Below, piece after piece: positions 7,052 to 28,478 of a stretch of 35,802 nt of DNA. Numbering within the stretch: the stretch's first letter is position 1; each line of letters opens with the position of its first letter. The translations under genes and the position numbers were made by a program. The notes beneath the pieces were generated by a model that did not search any database, was not told the DNA's origin, and saw only the letters and a list, made by a program, of their open reading frames with translations. Where the stretch lies: the IMG/VR virus record IMGVR_UViG_3300036399_000742, positions 1 to 35,802 of that record; one strand, written 5' to 3'. Source of the stretch: a virus.

Positions 7052-8920
7052 ATGAAGCCCGCCGCGAAAGAATTTTTTAGCACGCCCATGCGCCGAGTCA
7101 TGACCATCGGCGCAATCGCTGCGGAGTCGCGCACCATCGAGCTGGCTTTTTCGAGCAACGCGGAAATCGAACGCTGGCCCGGCATGGTCGAAGTCCTCGA
7201 TCACTCAGCGGATGCCTGCGACCTCTCGCGGCTAAACGACCGCGCAAATCTTTTGTTCAACCATGACGCCGACGAAGTGCTCGGAGTCGTCGAGACCGCC
7301 CGCATCGATGCAGACGGGATGGGCCGTGCGCTGGTGCGCTTCGGCAAATCCGAATGCGCCGAGGAAGCGTGGCGTGATGTGCAGGACGGAATCCTGACAA
7401 AAGTCTCAGTCGGCTACCGCATCCGCGAAGTCAAGTTGACCGAAGAACGCGAGGGCGTGGATGTCTACACCGTCAGCCGGTGGGAACCCTACGAAATCTC
7501 CCTCGTCACCATCCCCGCCGACACTTCTGTCGGAGTGGGTCGCAGCCTTACCAACCCGCCAGAGGCGATCAGCCTCGGCACAATCACCCAATCCAATATG
7601 CAAGATACAACCAATCCCGCGCCACAAGCGCCCGCACCGGCGGCACCGGAGATCAACATCGTAGCCGAGCGCAACGCCGCCATCAAAAGCGAGCAAGACC
7701 GCACCCGCTCGATCCTCGAAGCAGGTGACAAATACGGCATGCCCGCCCTCGCCGCACAGATCGTGCGTGACGGCGGTAGCCTGGTGGACTTCCAGTCCGC
7801 AGCCCTTGCCGAAAAGGACAAGCGCAGCGCCCAGATCCGCGAAGGCGTCGCCCCCATCGGCCTCAACGAACGCGAAGCAGGCAGCTTCTCTTTCTTGAAA
7901 CTCATCCGCGCACTCGCTGCCGAGCCTACCGACAAGAAAGCCCGTCAAGATGCGGCTTTCGAGTTGGAAGCCTGCGAAACCGCTGCCGGAAAAGTCGCAC
8001 ACCGCAATGTCAAAGGCACCATGATTCCCGTGGATGTCCTCACATCTGGCTTCGGACAGCGCGGCTCGAACACCGTGTCGGCAAAATCCGGCGCTGGCTA
8101 CACTGGCACGGGCGGAAACACCGTTCAGACCAACCTCCTCGCCTCCTCATTCATCGATGTGCTCCGTAACAAAGCGACCATCATGAACCTCGGCACCGAG
8201 CTGGCTGGCCTCGTCGGCAATGTGGACATCCCAAAACAGACGACCTTCGGCAACGGCTACTGGCTCGGCGAAGATGAAGACGCGCCAAAATCCGACATCG
8301 ATTTCGGCCTCGTCACGCTGCGTCCTCGCACGGTTGCAAACTACGGTGAAATCACTCGCCGCATGCTCCAGCAATCATCGCTGTCGATCGAGGCACTGCT
8401 TCGTAATGACCTTGCGCAAGCCCTCGCCCTCACCATCGACTCCGCAGCCTTCTACGGAACTGGCCTCACAAATCAGCCAGTCGGCATCAAGTCCGCCGCA
8501 GGTGTGCTCTCCAAGAGCTTCGCAGCGGTCCAGCCTACATTCATTGAACTGGTTGACATGGAAACCATGGTGGCCACTCAAAACGCCGATGTAGACAGCA
8601 TGGCATTCGTTGCCAACCCATCGACTCGCGGCATGGCTAAAACCACGCTCAAATTCCCAACCGGCAACACAAGCGCCGGAACAATCTGGGAAGGTGGATC
8701 GATGAACGGCTACCGCACGGAAATCACAAACCAAGTTGCCTCTGGCGATGTGTTTTTCGCAAATTTCTCCGATTTCCTCATCGGGATTTTTGGCGGCCTC
8801 GAAATCACGGTCGACCCATACTCGAACAGCACCAAAGGCCGTCTGCGCATCGTCGCAATGCAAGATGTGGACTTCGCTGTCCGCCGCGCCCAGTCCTTCG
8901 TTTACGGCAAAAAGCCCTAA
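7052..8920 (+). CDS. Fused prohead protease and HK97-type major capsid protein
   Basis: The protein has 622 residues. Residues 1-170 form a phage prohead protease domain of the U35/S78 type, with a candidate His71 (LFNHDADEVLGVV) and Ser119 (ILTKVSVGY). Residues about 183-310 are a charged, partly helical delta/scaffold-like region. Residues about 330-620 are an HK97-fold capsid protein (LRPRTVANYGEITRRMLQQS, FYGTGLTNQPVGI, and a C-terminal VDPYSNSTKGRLRI). The protease presumably cuts itself and the scaffold during head maturation. An in-frame ATG at 7598 (residue 183) could give capsid protein without the protease. Separate protease and capsid genes are more usual. A terminator follows. Confidence 0.92.
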   Translation: MKPAAKEFFSTPMRRVMTIGAIAAESRTIELAFSSNAEIERWPGMVEVLDHSADACDLSRLNDRANLLFNHDADEVLGVVETARIDADGMGRALVRFGKSECAEEAWRDVQDGILTKVSVGYRIREVKLTEEREGVDVYTVSRWEPYEISLVTIPADTSVGVGRSLTNPPEAISLGTITQSNMQDTTNPAPQAPAPAAPEINIVAERNAAIKSEQDRTRSILEAGDKYGMPALAAQIVRDGGSLVDFQSAALAEKDKRSAQIREGVAPIGLNEREAGSFSFLKLIRALAAEPTDKKARQDAAFELEACETAAGKVAHRNVKGTMIPVDVLTSGFGQRGSNTVSAKSGAGYTGTGGNTVQTNLLASSFIDVLRNKATIMNLGTELAGLVGNVDIPKQTTFGNGYWLGEDEDAPKSDIDFGLVTLRPRTVANYGEITRRMLQQSSLSIEALLRNDLAQALALTIDSAAFYGTGLTNQPVGIKSAAGVLSKSFAAVQPTFIELVDMETMVATQNADVDSMAFVANPSTRGMAKTTLKFPTGNTSAGTIWEGGSMNGYRTEITNQVASGDVFFANFSDFLIGIFGGLEITVDPYSNSTKGRLRIVAMQDVDFAVRRAQSFVYGKKP

Positions 8921-22976: not shown

Positions 22977-23224
22977 CGGGTAACAGCGGGTAACAGCCAC
23001 GCAAGCCGTTGATTTACAAACACCGAAAACAGACTTAAAATCCCTTTTCGTGAAAACGGAGTGCGGGTTCGAGTCCCGCCGCCGGCACTGGGTGGGAGGG
23101 CTTCTTTGCCGCTCTGGGTGCGGGTTGGCGGGGTTTTGTTGTCGCTACATCACACGACTTCACATCACTCTTAAAAGCGTTTTTACTTGGTTTTTCGGGT
23201 AACACGGGTAACAGTTGGGTAAAA
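22977..23224 (+). other. attP: Phage attachment site attP with arm repeats
   Basis: The left arm holds two tandem copies of CGGGTAACAG (22977-22986 and 22987-22996). The right arm holds CGGGTAACA at 23196-23204, CGGGTAACAG at 23205-23214 and a degenerate TGGGTAAAA ending at the next gene. Between them lies the tRNA-derived core. This is the classical plan of a tyrosine-integrase attP, with arm-type sites on both sides of a tRNA 3' core, and the integrase gene is 200 bases away. The arm repeats could bind the integrase or the small HTH protein. The intergenic stretch holds no other gene. Confidence 0.8.
23034..23087 (+). repeat. attP core: 3' half of a tRNA-Leu(UAA) gene
   Basis: From the anticodon loop on, the sequence follows a class II tRNA. 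Loop cTTAAAA has anticodon TAA at 23036-23038. The 3' anticodon stem TCCCT is next, then a long variable arm (TTTTCGTGAAAACGG), then T-arm GCGGG-TTCGAGT-CCCGC (23065-23079), the 3' acceptor strand CGCCGGC and discriminator A (23087). The encoded CCA is absent (CTG follows). No 5' half is present, so it is not a gene of its own. It should restore the host tRNA on integration. Confidence 0.85.
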
Positions 23225-23427
23225 TGAAAGGAACGATCACCATTAAGGAGGCCTGCGAGCTAACCGGGGCATGCCCTTGGACGATCAAGATGCACATTTA
23301 CAAAGGCTCGTTCTCGGCCTGCAAGCCACTCGGGAATCGTGGCGGGTGGCGGATTTTTACTGAGTCTTTCAACCAATGGTGGGCGGGCCGGATCGGCGAA
23401 ACCTCGAACAAAAGGCCCGCGAAATGA
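23224..23427 (+). CDS. Small helix-turn-helix protein, candidate excisionase/directionality factor
   Basis: The 67-residue reading starts at ATG 23224; a TTG at 23215 is possible, but the paralogue at 27473 starts at the same Met. TITIKEACELTGACPWTIKM is a MerR/excisionase-type helix-turn-helix, followed by the conserved beta-wing GSFSACKPLGNRGGWRIF. It lies between attP and the integrase and overlaps the latter by ATGA, the place where an excisionase would be expected. It is identical at 43 of 67 positions to the protein at 27473. Confidence 0.65.
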   Translation: MKGTITIKEACELTGACPWTIKMHIYKGSFSACKPLGNRGGWRIFTESFNQWWAGRIGETSNKRPAK

Positions 23428-24449
23428 AAACTCGATATTTTGTTACTCCCCACAAGTCACGACCCGGCACTTGGAAACTGGAGATTCCGGCATCGGTTTC
23501 GGGCAACCGGATCAAGCGATTCTTTAAATCGGAGGCGGAGGCATGGGCGGCGGGGCCGGCGCTTTTTGAGGCTTTGCAGAAAACAGGGACGGAGGGACTG
23601 AAAGACAAGGAACAGGCGGGGCTGTCGATGCGTTCGGCGATTCGGGATTATGTTGCGACCAAATCTAAATCGTCACAGGCGCACAAGGACAAGATCGAGC
23701 GGGTTTGCGGGCGCTTGTTGGAAGAGTTCGAGGGGCCGGTGGCGAATGTAACGCCGTTGAAGGCGGGGAAGTGGTTTGACTCGGTGGAGGGATCACCGAC
23801 CACACGAGCGGGCTGGCATCGCTACGCGAGCGGTTTTTTTGCGTGGTGCGTGGATATGGAGCTTATTGACCGGAATCCGCTGCGGAGGATCAAGGCTCCG
23901 AAAGCGGAGGCGAAGCGGTCACTCATCACGGCATCGCAAATGGTGACGATTCTGGCCGAGGACATGAGCGACGAATTGCGGGCGTGGTTCCTCCTCGGTG
24001 GATTTGCGGGCCTTCGGTCCATCGAGGTGCGGCGGATGCGGTGGGAGGATATTGACGCCGCGAGGGGAGAGATCGAGATCAGGCGGGAGGTTTCCAAGCA
24101 ATCCAGCGGACTGCCAGAGCGCATCGTTGATTTCACAGAGCCGCTGACGCGAAGGGCGGCGTTCTTTGTGGGCGATAAAAAGAAGGGGTTGATCCTGCCA
24201 CCGGCATCGTTGCGGATTTACGCAGAGCGGCAGGCGCTCATTGTGAGGCTACACGAGGCGGACAAGGTGCCGTGGTCGCAGTTTCCTGAAAACGCTCTGA
24301 GGCACTCCTACGCGACCTATCACCTCGGGCGCGGGCAGGACGCTGGCAAGACTGCGCACCAGCTTGGGCATTCGACGACAGCAATGGTCAAGCGAGTCTA
24401 TGCCGTGCCTTCGCGCCGTGCGGATTGGCGGGCATGGTGGGCGGTTTGA
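23424..24449 (+). CDS. int: Tyrosine recombinase (phage integrase)
   Basis: The protein has 341 residues from ATG 23424 (ATGA overlap with the HTH gene); a start at 23376 would lie inside that gene. Residues about 70-150 are a SAM-like core-binding domain (AIRDYVATKSKSSQAHKDKI). The catalytic domain shows Arg198 (FAGLRSIEVRRMRW), a likely Lys225, Arg293 (ALRHSYATYHLG), His316 (HQLGHSTTAMVKRVY) and nucleophile Tyr326. The usual His three residues before Arg293 is Asn290 here. It should join attP to the host tRNA-Leu gene. Its codon use is more G-rich than that of the tail genes. Confidence 0.95.
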   Translation: MKTRYFVTPHKSRPGTWKLEIPASVSGNRIKRFFKSEAEAWAAGPALFEALQKTGTEGLKDKEQAGLSMRSAIRDYVATKSKSSQAHKDKIERVCGRLLEEFEGPVANVTPLKAGKWFDSVEGSPTTRAGWHRYASGFFAWCVDMELIDRNPLRRIKAPKAEAKRSLITASQMVTILAEDMSDELRAWFLLGGFAGLRSIEVRRMRWEDIDAARGEIEIRREVSKQSSGLPERIVDFTEPLTRRAAFFVGDKKKGLILPPASLRIYAERQALIVRLHEADKVPWSQFPENALRHSYATYHLGRGQDAGKTAHQLGHSTTAMVKRVYAVPSRRADWRAWWAV

Positions 24450-24491
24450 AAAATTCTTGGCGGATCGTTGTCAGACATTCATTCTCTCAAT

Positions 24492-25583
24492 ATGCCTGTA
24501 AAGAATGCTTCAAACGATGATTGGCGTAATGATCCTATTACAGACCGTCAACGCGATTTGATCGAGGAAAAGGGCTTCGACGCTCCAAATACAAAAGGAG
24601 AAGCGAGCGACCTAATCAGCGAAATTTTAAGCCGAGAAGACAAAGCGACAGAAAGCCAGATAAGGCGTCTTGAGTTCTATGGAATCTATGGAGATTTCAG
24701 TAAAAAAGAGGCGATGGAGTTAATTGAAAAAAACAAGCCTCTCCACGATGAAGATGAATACCAGGAGTGGAAGAAAATTGTTTGTAAGATAGACCCCCCG
24801 ATCAAACCAATTCAACAACCCTCGGAAACAGGAGCGCCCTCTTCAACCGTAAAAAAAGATTCGCCTTGGATAATGGGGGCTTTGCGTGGGTTAGTTTACG
24901 CCTTCCGCATTGCAACAGGGATTTTTATCACAATTCTGGCGCTTGCAGCGTTCTCAGAATCTTTTTTTGCATTTGGCATGTTTCTTGTCTCCGCATTTTT
25001 GGCTTTTCCGTTTTTATCTAAGAAACTTAGATGGGGATTTGTTGCAAAATGGTTGATTTTTGCGGGCTGCTTTTTTGCTGCGACCATTCTGTTTGCTAAT
25101 TCCTCAAACAAAAAAATTGCAAAGGTTGAGATACGGCATGATCCCGCAGGCCCAGTCAAGGATCAGGGAACGATTCAGACAACGCCAGCCGCTGCATCCT
25201 CTATTCAGGTGGATTGGAACAAGTATGCCGAGGAATTCAAAAAAAAACTGCGTGAAGATGGTGGACTGGTTTCCAAGGTGAACAAAATCGATGTTTCTAT
25301 GGACAATGAAAAATCGTCTGTGAAAGCGGTTTTAAGTCCGGAAGAGTTAAATAATTTTTCAAAAATTGGACCGCTCAAAAAAACAATCGATGTGCTTCTT
25401 GAAGGGCTTGTGGTTTTACAAGTGCAATTTGCGAAAGAAAAAAATCTTTCGATCAAAGGCCGTTTTTTTGCCGCGTATTTGCATATCGCAGAAGATGGGA
25501 TTCTAAACCCCGTGCGTTTCAAAAAACTTGGTATGGCTTCTTACAATCCAAATACAGATTCCGTAGATATTAACTATAAATAA
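24492..25583 (+). CDS. Three-helix membrane protein of unknown function, AT-rich cargo gene
   Basis: The 363-residue reading starts at ATG 24492 (a TTG at 24468 is possible). Residues about 15-82 contain two related helical units, PITDRQRDLIEEKGF ... EASDLISEILS and KATESQIRRLEFYGI ... KKEAMELIEK, a 'T..Q...L...G....kkeA..LI' repeat. A Pro-rich linker leads to three hydrophobic segments (about 127-153, 157-175, 183-202), then a soluble C-terminal domain of about 155 residues. The gene is clearly more AT-rich than its surroundings and lies next to the integrase, so it was probably acquired. It sits 3 bases before the ClpP-like gene, implying co-translation and a joint role. I do not recognise a family. 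Confidence 0.65.
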   Translation: MPVKNASNDDWRNDPITDRQRDLIEEKGFDAPNTKGEASDLISEILSREDKATESQIRRLEFYGIYGDFSKKEAMELIEKNKPLHDEDEYQEWKKIVCKIDPPIKPIQQPSETGAPSSTVKKDSPWIMGALRGLVYAFRIATGIFITILALAAFSESFFAFGMFLVSAFLAFPFLSKKLRWGFVAKWLIFAGCFFAATILFANSSNKKIAKVEIRHDPAGPVKDQGTIQTTPAAASSIQVDWNKYAEEFKKKLREDGGLVSKVNKIDVSMDNEKSSVKAVLSPEELNNFSKIGPLKKTIDVLLEGLVVLQVQFAKEKNLSIKGRFFAAYLHIAEDGILNPVRFKKLGMASYNPNTDSVDINYK

Positions 25584-25586
25584 AAA

Positions 25587-26255
25587 ATGGAAATATTCAT
25601 TCGCTTCATGGCTCCGGTAAATGGCACATCAGCAACAACATTGATGAAATGCATCGATGAGGCGCTTTCAAAAAATGTGGATCATATTCATTTGATGCTT
25701 TCATCTCCGGGAGGAAGTGTCTTTCACGGACTATCAATCCACAATTTTTTAAAAGGATCGCCTGTTCAAATAACAACATACAATTTTGGAACTGTAGACT
25801 CTATAGCCACAGTTATTTTTTGTGCAGGGTCAACAAGGCGATGTGTTCCTCACGCTCGATTTTTAATTCATGGGGTGAGTTTAACTTTTGAAGGGCCAAC
25901 TCGCATGGATGAAATTGGACTTGAGGAGCACCTAAAACTATTGAAGATTGACTATGAAAATATCGCCCGTGTGATTGCTGACACCACAGGGAAATCAACC
26001 AAAAAAATTGTCAAAGCTATGAATGACAGAACAACTCTTTCACCTACACAAGCCAAAGATTATGGGCTGGTTCATGAAATTTCTTCGGACTTGTTCCCAA
26101 AAAATTCCGAGTTGATGGTAATCATGGAAGACAATACCGCTCGGCAGGTCCTTCCAGGTTGCTACCAACTTCCCTTGATCACCCAGCACCAAAGCTCACA
26201 ACTTCCAAAAATCGAATCGAACTCCACGGCGCTATCGACCGGTTCGTATTGGTAG
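25587..26255 (+). CDS. ClpP-like serine protease
   Basis: The protein has 222 residues with a complete ClpP-type active site. The oxyanion loop is SSPGGSV (39-45), the nucleophile is Ser72 in FGTVDSIATVI, His95 is in ARFLIHGVS, and Asp147 is in NDRTTLSPTQAKDYGLV, which aligns with the E. coli catalytic Asp stretch. The fold ends near residue 170; a polar tail of 50 residues follows. There is no signal peptide. Such proteases usually work with an ATPase or membrane partner; here the only linked partner is the membrane protein directly upstream. It is not a prohead protease, which is encoded at 7052, and the AT-rich location beside int suggests a lysogenic cargo gene. Confidence 0.85.
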   Translation: MEIFIRFMAPVNGTSATTLMKCIDEALSKNVDHIHLMLSSPGGSVFHGLSIHNFLKGSPVQITTYNFGTVDSIATVIFCAGSTRRCVPHARFLIHGVSLTFEGPTRMDEIGLEEHLKLLKIDYENIARVIADTTGKSTKKIVKAMNDRTTLSPTQAKDYGLVHEISSDLFPKNSELMVIMEDNTARQVLPGCYQLPLITQHQSSQLPKIESNSTALSTGSYW

Positions 26256-26258
26256 GCT

Positions 26259-26583
26259 TTATTCCTCCGTCAGGTCGATGACTTGCGCCGTCCACCCTTC
26301 TGGTAGCGGGCCGTCCCAGCTTTCGAGGACCCACCAACGGAACGCTTGTATGGTTTCATGATCTCGGCACTGACATCCGGGGAGATGTTTGACGGTTTGC
26401 TTGAAGTTTTTTGCGCAAAAATTTCAGATTCACTATTACGAAGCTCGATCAGCGCATGTTCCACGATGCTTGAAAATGTGACCTTGGCCCACGGAGTTGA
26501 AGCCTTTGTTTCCTCCATTTTTTTGTGACCCATTCATGAAGTTCAACAGGTATCGAAACATTCTGCGTCTTGATGGTTTTCAT
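26259..26583 (-). pseudogene. Ribbon-helix-helix regulator gene with two apparent frameshifts
   Basis: On the minus strand ATG 26583 begins KTIKTQNVSIPVELHEWV, a typical RHH beta-strand and first helix, but the frame breaks at seven A (plus 26518-26524). One extra A would continue it as TKKMEETKASTPWAKVTFSS then IVEHALIELRNSE, the second helix. A second break at six A (near plus 26414-26419) would, with one extra A, lead into NFKQTVKHLPGCQCRDH and AFRWWVLESWDGPLPEGW, ending at 26259. The uncorrected 26270-26533 frame ends in an unconvincing basic tail. Both breaks are single missing bases in A-runs, so sequencing error, slippage or decay are possible. It converges on the ClpP-like gene and diverges from the RHH pair. 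Confidence 0.55.
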
Positions 26584-27093: not shown

Positions 27094-27476
27094 TGAGCTG
27101 GATAAAATTAGAGTCCGGCACTCCCGACAAACCCGAGGTGATGGAAATCGCCAGCCACCTCAAAATCGACACCGATGCAGTGCTCGGGAAGTTGATGCGG
27201 GTGTGGGCGTGGTTCGACGCCCATTCGGTAAAAGGCGCAGCACCTGAGAGCGCGGAGGCATTTCTGGACCGCCTGACGGCTTGCACCGGATTTGCCGAGG
27301 CGCTGGTAAAGGTGGGCTGGATGACTCGCCGCAATGGCAAGTCGAGCCTGGTGAATTTTGAGAAACACAACGGCAAGGAGGCGAAGACACGCAGCCTCTC
27401 TGCCAAGCGCACATCCGCGCACCGGATGATGAAGGCGCTCATCGCGGAACTGGAAAAAGAGGAGGGCGGGAAATGA
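27093..27476 (+). CDS. Replication-protein N-terminal domain paralogue
   Basis: The 127-residue reading starts at ATG 27093, preferred over GTG 27090 because AAGGAGG lies 8 bases upstream. SWIKLESGTPDKPEVMEIAS then VLGKLMRVWAWFDAH and AEALVKVGWMTRRNG matches the N-terminal domain of the protein at 32595 (WIKVELHLHEKPEVFQIATE, VVGKLLKIWGWAS), which resembles phage replisome-organiser N-termini. This copy lacks the C-terminal half, so it may compete with or regulate the full-length version. A Shine-Dalgarno (ggagggcggg) for the next gene lies in its end. Confidence 0.65.
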   Translation: MSWIKLESGTPDKPEVMEIASHLKIDTDAVLGKLMRVWAWFDAHSVKGAAPESAEAFLDRLTACTGFAEALVKVGWMTRRNGKSSLVNFEKHNGKEAKTRSLSAKRTSAHRMMKALIAELEKEEGGK

Positions 27477-27676
27477 AAGGCACGCTCACAGTGAAGCAAG
27501 CCGCCGAGGAAACCGGCGCTCACACAGAGACAATCCTTCGCCATATTCGGCGCGGAAGTTTCTCAGCCTGCAAACCGCTCGCAAATAAAGGCGGGTGGCG
27601 GATTTTTAAAGCTTCGTTCCAGAACTGGATGAGCGACCAGATCGGCGCGACCTCAAACAGGAGGCCCGCGAAATGA
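27473..27676 (+). CDS. Small helix-turn-helix protein, paralogue of the attP-adjacent one
   Basis: The protein has 67 residues. TLTVKQAAEETGAHTETILR is the helix-turn-helix and GSFSACKPLANKGGWRIF the wing. It is the same length as the protein at 23224, shares 43 identical residues with it and ends in the same TSN-RPAK. The differences concentrate in the recognition helix (residues 17-27), so the two probably bind different sites. It overlaps both neighbours by ATGA in the early operon. Confidence 0.65.
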   Translation: MKGTLTVKQAAEETGAHTETILRHIRRGSFSACKPLANKGGWRIFKASFQNWMSDQIGATSNRRPAK

Positions 27677-27953: not shown

Positions 27954-28478
27954 TTACCATTTGTCGGTTCGGATCAGGAAGTTGCTTCCTTTGAGAATGT
28001 GATGGTGTTTGTGGAGGTAATCCCACGCGATTGCATGAATGAGGTGAGGGAAGCCATCTACCATGCTTCCGAGCGAGTCCACGCGGTAAATGATGCCGTC
28101 GGTTACGAGAGCCTGAACGACGCCATCATCGATGCGGAGGGTATTGGATCGCGTATTCTCGACTATGTAGAAGCGGAGAATTTGTTTTTCGCTTTCGGTG
28201 AGTCTGTGGAGGCGTTGCGTGATGCGTTGAGAAATTTTCCTCTTCCGCAAAGCGTGTTGAATGCAGGACATGACAGATGCGCCTATGCCGGCGAGGAGCA
28301 GCGCAAGGGAGGAAATGAAAAGAATCCCGAGAACAGGGCGATAGTCTTGTGCAAATTGCGCAAGGCCGAGGGTATCGCGGAATTTTTCATCGCCAAAAAG
28401 AAGGAGTCCGGCGACAAGGCCGATCGCTACGAGGTATCGTGGGGCGAGCTTCAAAAATTGAAAGATGAAATCAAGCAT
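27954..28478 (-). CDS. Superinfection exclusion protein, SieB-like
   Basis: The protein has 174 residues on the minus strand. There are two hydrophobic segments (about 14-29 YLVAIGLVAGLLLFG and 48-73 PVLGILFISSLALLLAGIGA), then a cytoplasmic domain. That domain has LTESEKQILRFYIVENTRSN, then DDGVVQALVTDGIIYRVD and PHLIHAIAWDYLHKH, the pattern of the SieB family. SieB of lambda and P22 blocks growth of related phages in a lysogen. It lies antisense to the early operon, so it is probably expressed from its own lysogenic promoter. A long + strand frame (27795-28535) covers it and is judged a shadow, although its ends coincide with ATGA junctions. Confidence 0.8.
   Translation of the reverse strand: MLDFIFQFLKLAPRYLVAIGLVAGLLLFGDEKFRDTLGLAQFAQDYRPVLGILFISSLALLLAGIGASVMSCIQHALRKRKISQRITQRLHRLTESEKQILRFYIVENTRSNTLRIDDGVVQALVTDGIIYRVDSLGSMVDGFPHLIHAIAWDYLHKHHHILKGSNFLIRTDKW

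Follow-up and report, generated by a model that had tools for sequence, protein, structure and literature searches.

An orphan ClpP-like protease of an unnamed clade, carried as single-gene cargo beside the integrase of a temperate phage

The integrase-proximal region of the window phage

The window analysed here is the whole of the linear IMG/VR contig IMGVR_UViG_3300036399_000742 (35,802 bases). It comes from a temperate phage that encodes, besides the integrase, baseplate, tape-measure and portal proteins and RecT/exonuclease. Adjoining the integrase gene (int) are two open reading frames, separated by 3 bases and encoding a membrane protein and an orphan ClpP-like protease (Table 1). Their GC content of 38-44%, compared with about 57-60% for most of the window, bears out the first-pass annotation, which had described them as AT-rich cargo next to int. 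Its further statements, that a SieB-like gene lies 1.7 kb away and that no Clp ATPase is encoded, proved equally sound, as the SieB gene matched its Pfam model and a search for the Clp-type ATPase domain AAA_2 (PF07724) found none in the whole record and gave matches in 14/14 control genomes. A nucleotide search of the region against phages returned no match, and a promoter scan revealed no excess over shuffled sequences.

Table 1. Positions of the genes and sequence features discussed in the text, numbered along the window.
Feature	Position	Strand	Remark
Major capsid protein fused to its own head-maturation protease	7052..8920	+	
tRNA T-arm/3'-end-like sequence, probable attP core	23055..23090	+	GCGGGTTCGAGTCCCGCCGCCGGCA
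Tyrosine integrase	23376..24449	+	
Membrane protein gene, 363 aa	24492..25583	+	Chimeric; alternative TTG start at 24468
Duplicated helical unit, residues 16-83	24537..24740	+	Conservation in L003-L007 about 80% or higher
Three predicted transmembrane helices, residues 125-205	24864..25106	+	
Soluble C-terminal domain, residues 207-363	25110..25580	+	Relatives: none found
Orphan ClpP-like protease gene, 222 aa	25587..26255	+	
Ribbon-helix-helix (RHH)-like regulator, split between frames at 26449-26583 and 26270-26533	26270..26583	-	Identified by eye
SieB superinfection exclusion protein	27954..28478	-	PF14163, E=1.1e-27

The sequence resembling a tRNA end sits just upstream of xis/int and is also present in a related phage contig (L006, at about 4575); in a further relative with another integrase (L005), the tRNA-end sequence differs from that of the window. 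The probable attP core has been swapped jointly with the integrase. Two excisionase-like paralogues (23215-23427 and 27473-27676), which are similar over their whole length, flank the region of int, cargo and RHH-like regulator on both sides and could provide homology for cargo exchange. The RHH-like regulator itself is spread over two frames, apparently frameshifted near a T run, and the fragment had no Pfam match.

Two features that had been read from the membrane protein at first pass, a duplicated N-terminal helical unit and three hydrophobic segments, were recovered, with the duplication giving an alignment score above all 2000 shuffles and the three helices falling at about residues 125-205 (Table 1). 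The protein is chimeric, with a conserved N-domain followed by variable membrane and C-terminal parts. The N-domain follows int in five relatives (L003-L007), where it is succeeded by a similar or a single hydrophobic part and where the protease adjoins it in none. The unit, which we write as TxxQxxLI..KG..TKGEAS.LI, is found duplicated on a membrane anchor in the window (24492-24780) and in L003-L007, and genes with the duplicated unit stand directly after int in several related phages whose integrases differ. The unit had no Pfam match, the membrane protein as a whole had no useful match in phage records, Pfam, PHROGs, PADLOC or the PDB, and its C-terminal domain had no relative among viral contigs; its structure model (pLDDT 61) was of too low quality for a structure search. 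Because the membrane-protein homology ends at different points among relatives (at 25077 for L003 and near 24781 for L004-L007), and because similarity to L006 resumes at 26242, the stretch from int to the RHH-like regulator is a variable cargo site, of which the regulator is the downstream border.

The protease and its clade

The protease matched Pfam family PF00574 (E=1.8e-25) and, as had been proposed, is ClpP-like, with a ClpP fold at residues 1-168 and a predicted disordered tail at residues 184-222; its AlphaFold2 model has an overall pLDDT of 84 and is confident at residues 1-180 and disordered after 184. The triad Ser72-His95-Asp147, described at first pass as intact, stood only in part. 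The SSPGGS motif is present and Ser72 and His95 are invariant in the family, but the column of the canonical Asp171 holds Arg148, and therefore neither Asp nor Asn. Arg occupies this column in 28/28 of the members with a residue there within clade A, the clade of the window protease, and the column is variable in the sister clade B. Asp147 lies one position off the canonical column and is Asp in 8/28 members; the acids that are invariant in clade A are Asp71 (directly before the serine), Glu114 and Asp122. The window protease opens directly with the first core strand and therefore has neither the axial loop nor the helix that canonical ClpP carries at its N-terminus, and the docking aromatic columns Tyr62 and Phe82 are occupied by Met37 and Gly57. 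Judged on sequence, the clade keeps the fold and the Ser-His pair and has lost the axial gate at the N-terminus, the aromatic residues that usually dock an unfoldase and the Asp of the canonical catalytic site. It has three hallmarks that can be tested: the missing axial gate, an Arg where the catalytic Asp would stand and an invariant Asp preceding the serine.

Near the end of a low-complexity C-terminal tail of variable length, members L086, L087, L089, L091-L093, L096, L098, L100, L101 and L131 carry the motif [FY]T[RQKE]Sx[DS]L[DHN], possibly a short binding motif, which in the window protease is at best partly recognisable (TALSTGSYW).

Phylogenetic placement separated clades A and B from canonical and head-maturation ClpPs (support 100/99), with clade A alone being weakly supported (75/58). 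The window protease is accordingly placed by its sequence in an unnamed clade A that is sister to clade B and distinct from the canonical and head-maturation proteins. Clade B holds enterobacterial prophage copies, Pseudomonas chromosomal copies and ClpP1 of Pseudomonas plecoglossicida (PpClpP1), the last on a long branch. None of the NCBIfam models came near its cut-off for the window protease, which scored 52 bits against 309 for TIGR00493 and 72 bits against 120 for NF045542.

PHROGs head-maturation families do match the window protease (best phrog_94, E=1.1e-29), as would be expected of a ClpP-type head-maturation protease, yet we give this reading next to no chance and rejected it. The gene is found next to int and not within the head genes between portal and capsid, the NF045542 score falls short, and the tree puts the protein in a different, well-supported clade. 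Moreover, the phage has a head protease fused to its capsid protein, and so the ClpP-like gene is not needed for heads, in keeping with the first-pass view that its product did not look like a virion protein.

The mixed alignment A1 was too diverse for scanning, and bacterial and archaeal genomes were scanned with the protease core as query, which revealed 39 loci. Most of these (29/39, L086-L114) form a close clade A group, with about 46-63% identity to the window protease over residues 1-175, and the other ten, more distant, are in Pseudomonas. The close group spans Desulfobacterota, Omnitrophota, Planctomycetota, Patescibacteria, Chloroflexota, Spirochaetota, Bacteroidota, Proteobacteria, WOR-3 and others, and is rare in the phyla sampled (1/296, 4/297 and 3/247 genomes, with the query genome counted each time). 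A family HMM scored members at 200-362 bits and the other, canonical-type ClpPs of the same genomes at 58-75 bits; such a second, lower-scoring ClpP was present in most of 24 host genomes, so that a partner for mixed rings exists there. In many cases clade A copies are chromosomal, with ordinary surroundings or housekeeping neighbours rather than a prophage around them, which counts against the reading as phage cargo given below; one (L102, from Variovorax) is near a tape-measure gene and is probably in a prophage. What is new here is the clade and its spread, not a proven mechanism, and the result tells a mobile ClpP-like clade apart from housekeeping ClpP and from the head-maturation protease, both of which databases merge with it.

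Mobility of the protease gene and its relation to the membrane protein

A search of viral contigs gave a single close relative of the window protease, in L002, which carries another integrase, has an unrelated 177-aa gene just upstream of the protease (no copy of which was found beyond L002's own contig) and lacks the membrane protein. DNA homology to L002 around the protease covers 25584-26254 only, that is, the open reading frame, and the flanks differ. Across it the two genes share 86% nucleotide and 96% protein identity, with a dN of 0.027 and a dS of 0.94 (dN/dS about 0.03), and the gene is under strong purifying selection. The protease gene, which is near int in both clade A phages, thus moves alone while selection keeps the protein.

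The first-pass annotation had instead joined the two genes into a membrane-sensing proteolysis module, in which the C-terminal domain of the membrane protein would be a substrate or regulator of the protease. Their spacing of 3 bases and shared AT-richness fit such a pairing, as does the fact that, compared with L003, both the C-terminal domain and the protease are additional here. However, the pair was seen once: by tblastn the membrane protein was absent at every other protease locus examined, no other genome examined contained the two together, and homologues occur apart, with the protease alone in L002 and the membrane N-domain in L003-L007 without an adjoining protease. The C-terminal domain, moreover, is without a detected relative and belongs to a poorly modelled protein. 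As homologues that do not co-occur had been named beforehand as the refuting outcome, the two-gene module is unsupported, and we regard it as very unlikely. A comparison of 324 neighbouring ORFs across phyla likewise revealed no recurring protease neighbour, only within-phylum synteny and a few common genes. The int-proximal cargo is a single mobile gene for a ClpP-like protease with no fixed partner; the membrane protein, which is unrelated to the protease, represents another accessory gene in the lineage of the window phage. The ClpP-like gene therefore looks to be a moron that is passed on and exchanged alone.

Possible roles and comparison with known systems

Clade B copies behave as morons in enterobacterial prophages: they are found at many different sites, are antisense to both flanking genes in 36/49 distinct contexts and are sometimes preceded by an Arc/Mnt-type RHH gene. 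In the P22-like prophages L009, L017 and L036 the gene order is 9-ant-arc / mnt-ClpP / 16-20 (ant was not detected in L036). The order in P22 is 9-ant-arc / mnt-sieA / 16-20, where the sieA slot serves exclusion and SieA is an exclusion protein expressed by the prophage (PMC10883804). The clade B gene thus takes exactly the place of sieA, between mnt and gene 16, which suggests a role in protecting the lysogen. The ClpP-like genes at this position (L009, 4741-5525; L017; L036) are annotated as head maturation protease or ATP-dependent Clp protease, both of which are probably misleading names. The sieA-replacing copy in P22-like coliphages offers a tractable laboratory model.

Given that members of its sister clade stand in place of sieA, superinfection exclusion is possible for the window protease as well: made by the prophage and acting alone, it might cleave or destabilise a component of an incoming phage, such as an ejection protein or a lysis-decision regulator. 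The proximity of SieB, the int-proximal placement in both clade A phages and the restriction or RloAB-type genes that adjoin some clade A copies (L086, L087, L100 and L110) are consistent with this. Yet the same genomic position need not imply the same function, many clade A copies have housekeeping neighbours, and when 103 neighbours were set against 103 same-genome controls in PADLOC, with output given by family rather than by protein and control regions drawn largely from the first 9 kb of arbitrary contigs, there was no clear enrichment (3 versus 2 members in the top family). A literature search for phage-encoded or orphan ClpP as an exclusion factor found none among the papers covered. 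On balance we consider exclusion by the protease alone possible but rather doubtful. The Treponema copies L110 and L111 share a neighbourhood with an AAA ATPase and RloB pair upstream on the opposite strand.

A broader version of the exclusion idea, in which clade A would consist of phage-mobilised subunits that cross phyla and corrupt host ClpP rings against competitor phages or for lysogeny, as one-gene exclusion, strikes us as unlikely. Also unlikely is a role in lysogeny control, with the phage's own repressor or RHH regulator as the target of degradation: the protease does lie between int and the RHH-like gene, and clade B genes are at times preceded by an RHH gene, but the RHH-like gene of the window is apparently frameshifted and clade A elsewhere has no recurring neighbour.

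The reading that we favour, with moderate confidence, is that the protease is stand-alone lysogenic-conversion cargo that benefits the lysogen, either by mixing into host ClpP rings or as a slow peptidase. It would assemble into ClpP-type rings that cannot themselves recruit ClpX. Mixed rings with host ClpP could then alter the choice of targets, or the rate of their degradation, by host ClpXP or ClpAP; a ClpP is assumed in the host of the window phage. Alternatively, the protein may be a slow, ATP-independent peptidase. Expression would presumably occur during lysogeny, to the gain of the prophage. We think it probable that the protease acts without an ATPase of its own and through host ClpP, and if it does enter host rings, it would represent a simple phage route to altered host protein turnover.

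The nearest precedent is PpClpP1, which was the best PDB match in Foldseek (9uxt, E=2.5e-17, target TM 0.91, above all canonical ClpPs) and also the best match by sequence (E=8e-21). PpClpP1 forms a tetradecamer with a wide pore, has weak activity and does not bind ClpX; mixed with the canonical PpClpP2 it yields heterotetradecamers, which do bind ClpX and break down model substrates slightly faster (PMC12900304). Like the window protease, it is encoded by a stand-alone gene, has no N-terminal axial domain, keeps Ser and His and has the canonical Asp replaced. As the same parts are lost in both, behaviour like that of PpClpP1 is the most economical guess, extended by homology at about 26% identity. 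The precedent is limited, in that PpClpP1 lies on its long branch within sister clade B, has Pro as third residue where clade A has an invariant Arg, and is known from a chromosome and not from a phage of the window type.

Canonical ClpP shares with the window protease the fold, the Gly-Gly oxyanion loop, Ser and His, but the latter is without an axial loop and has Arg at the canonical Asp position, and clade A has Met/Leu at the Tyr62 position and no ATPase partner. The ClpP-related head-maturation protease (NF045542, phrog_94) is likewise a ClpP-type fold in a phage, but of another clade and gene position, and its role is already filled in the window phage. P22 SieA has only its genomic slot in common with the clade B gene and is a distinct protein that blocks DNA delivery. 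The clade B morons (e.g., L008, L017 and L036) resemble the window protease in being orphan ClpP-like single genes of temperate phages, but at about 30% identity, without the long C-terminal tail, and with a position in the late genes or immI region rather than beside int.
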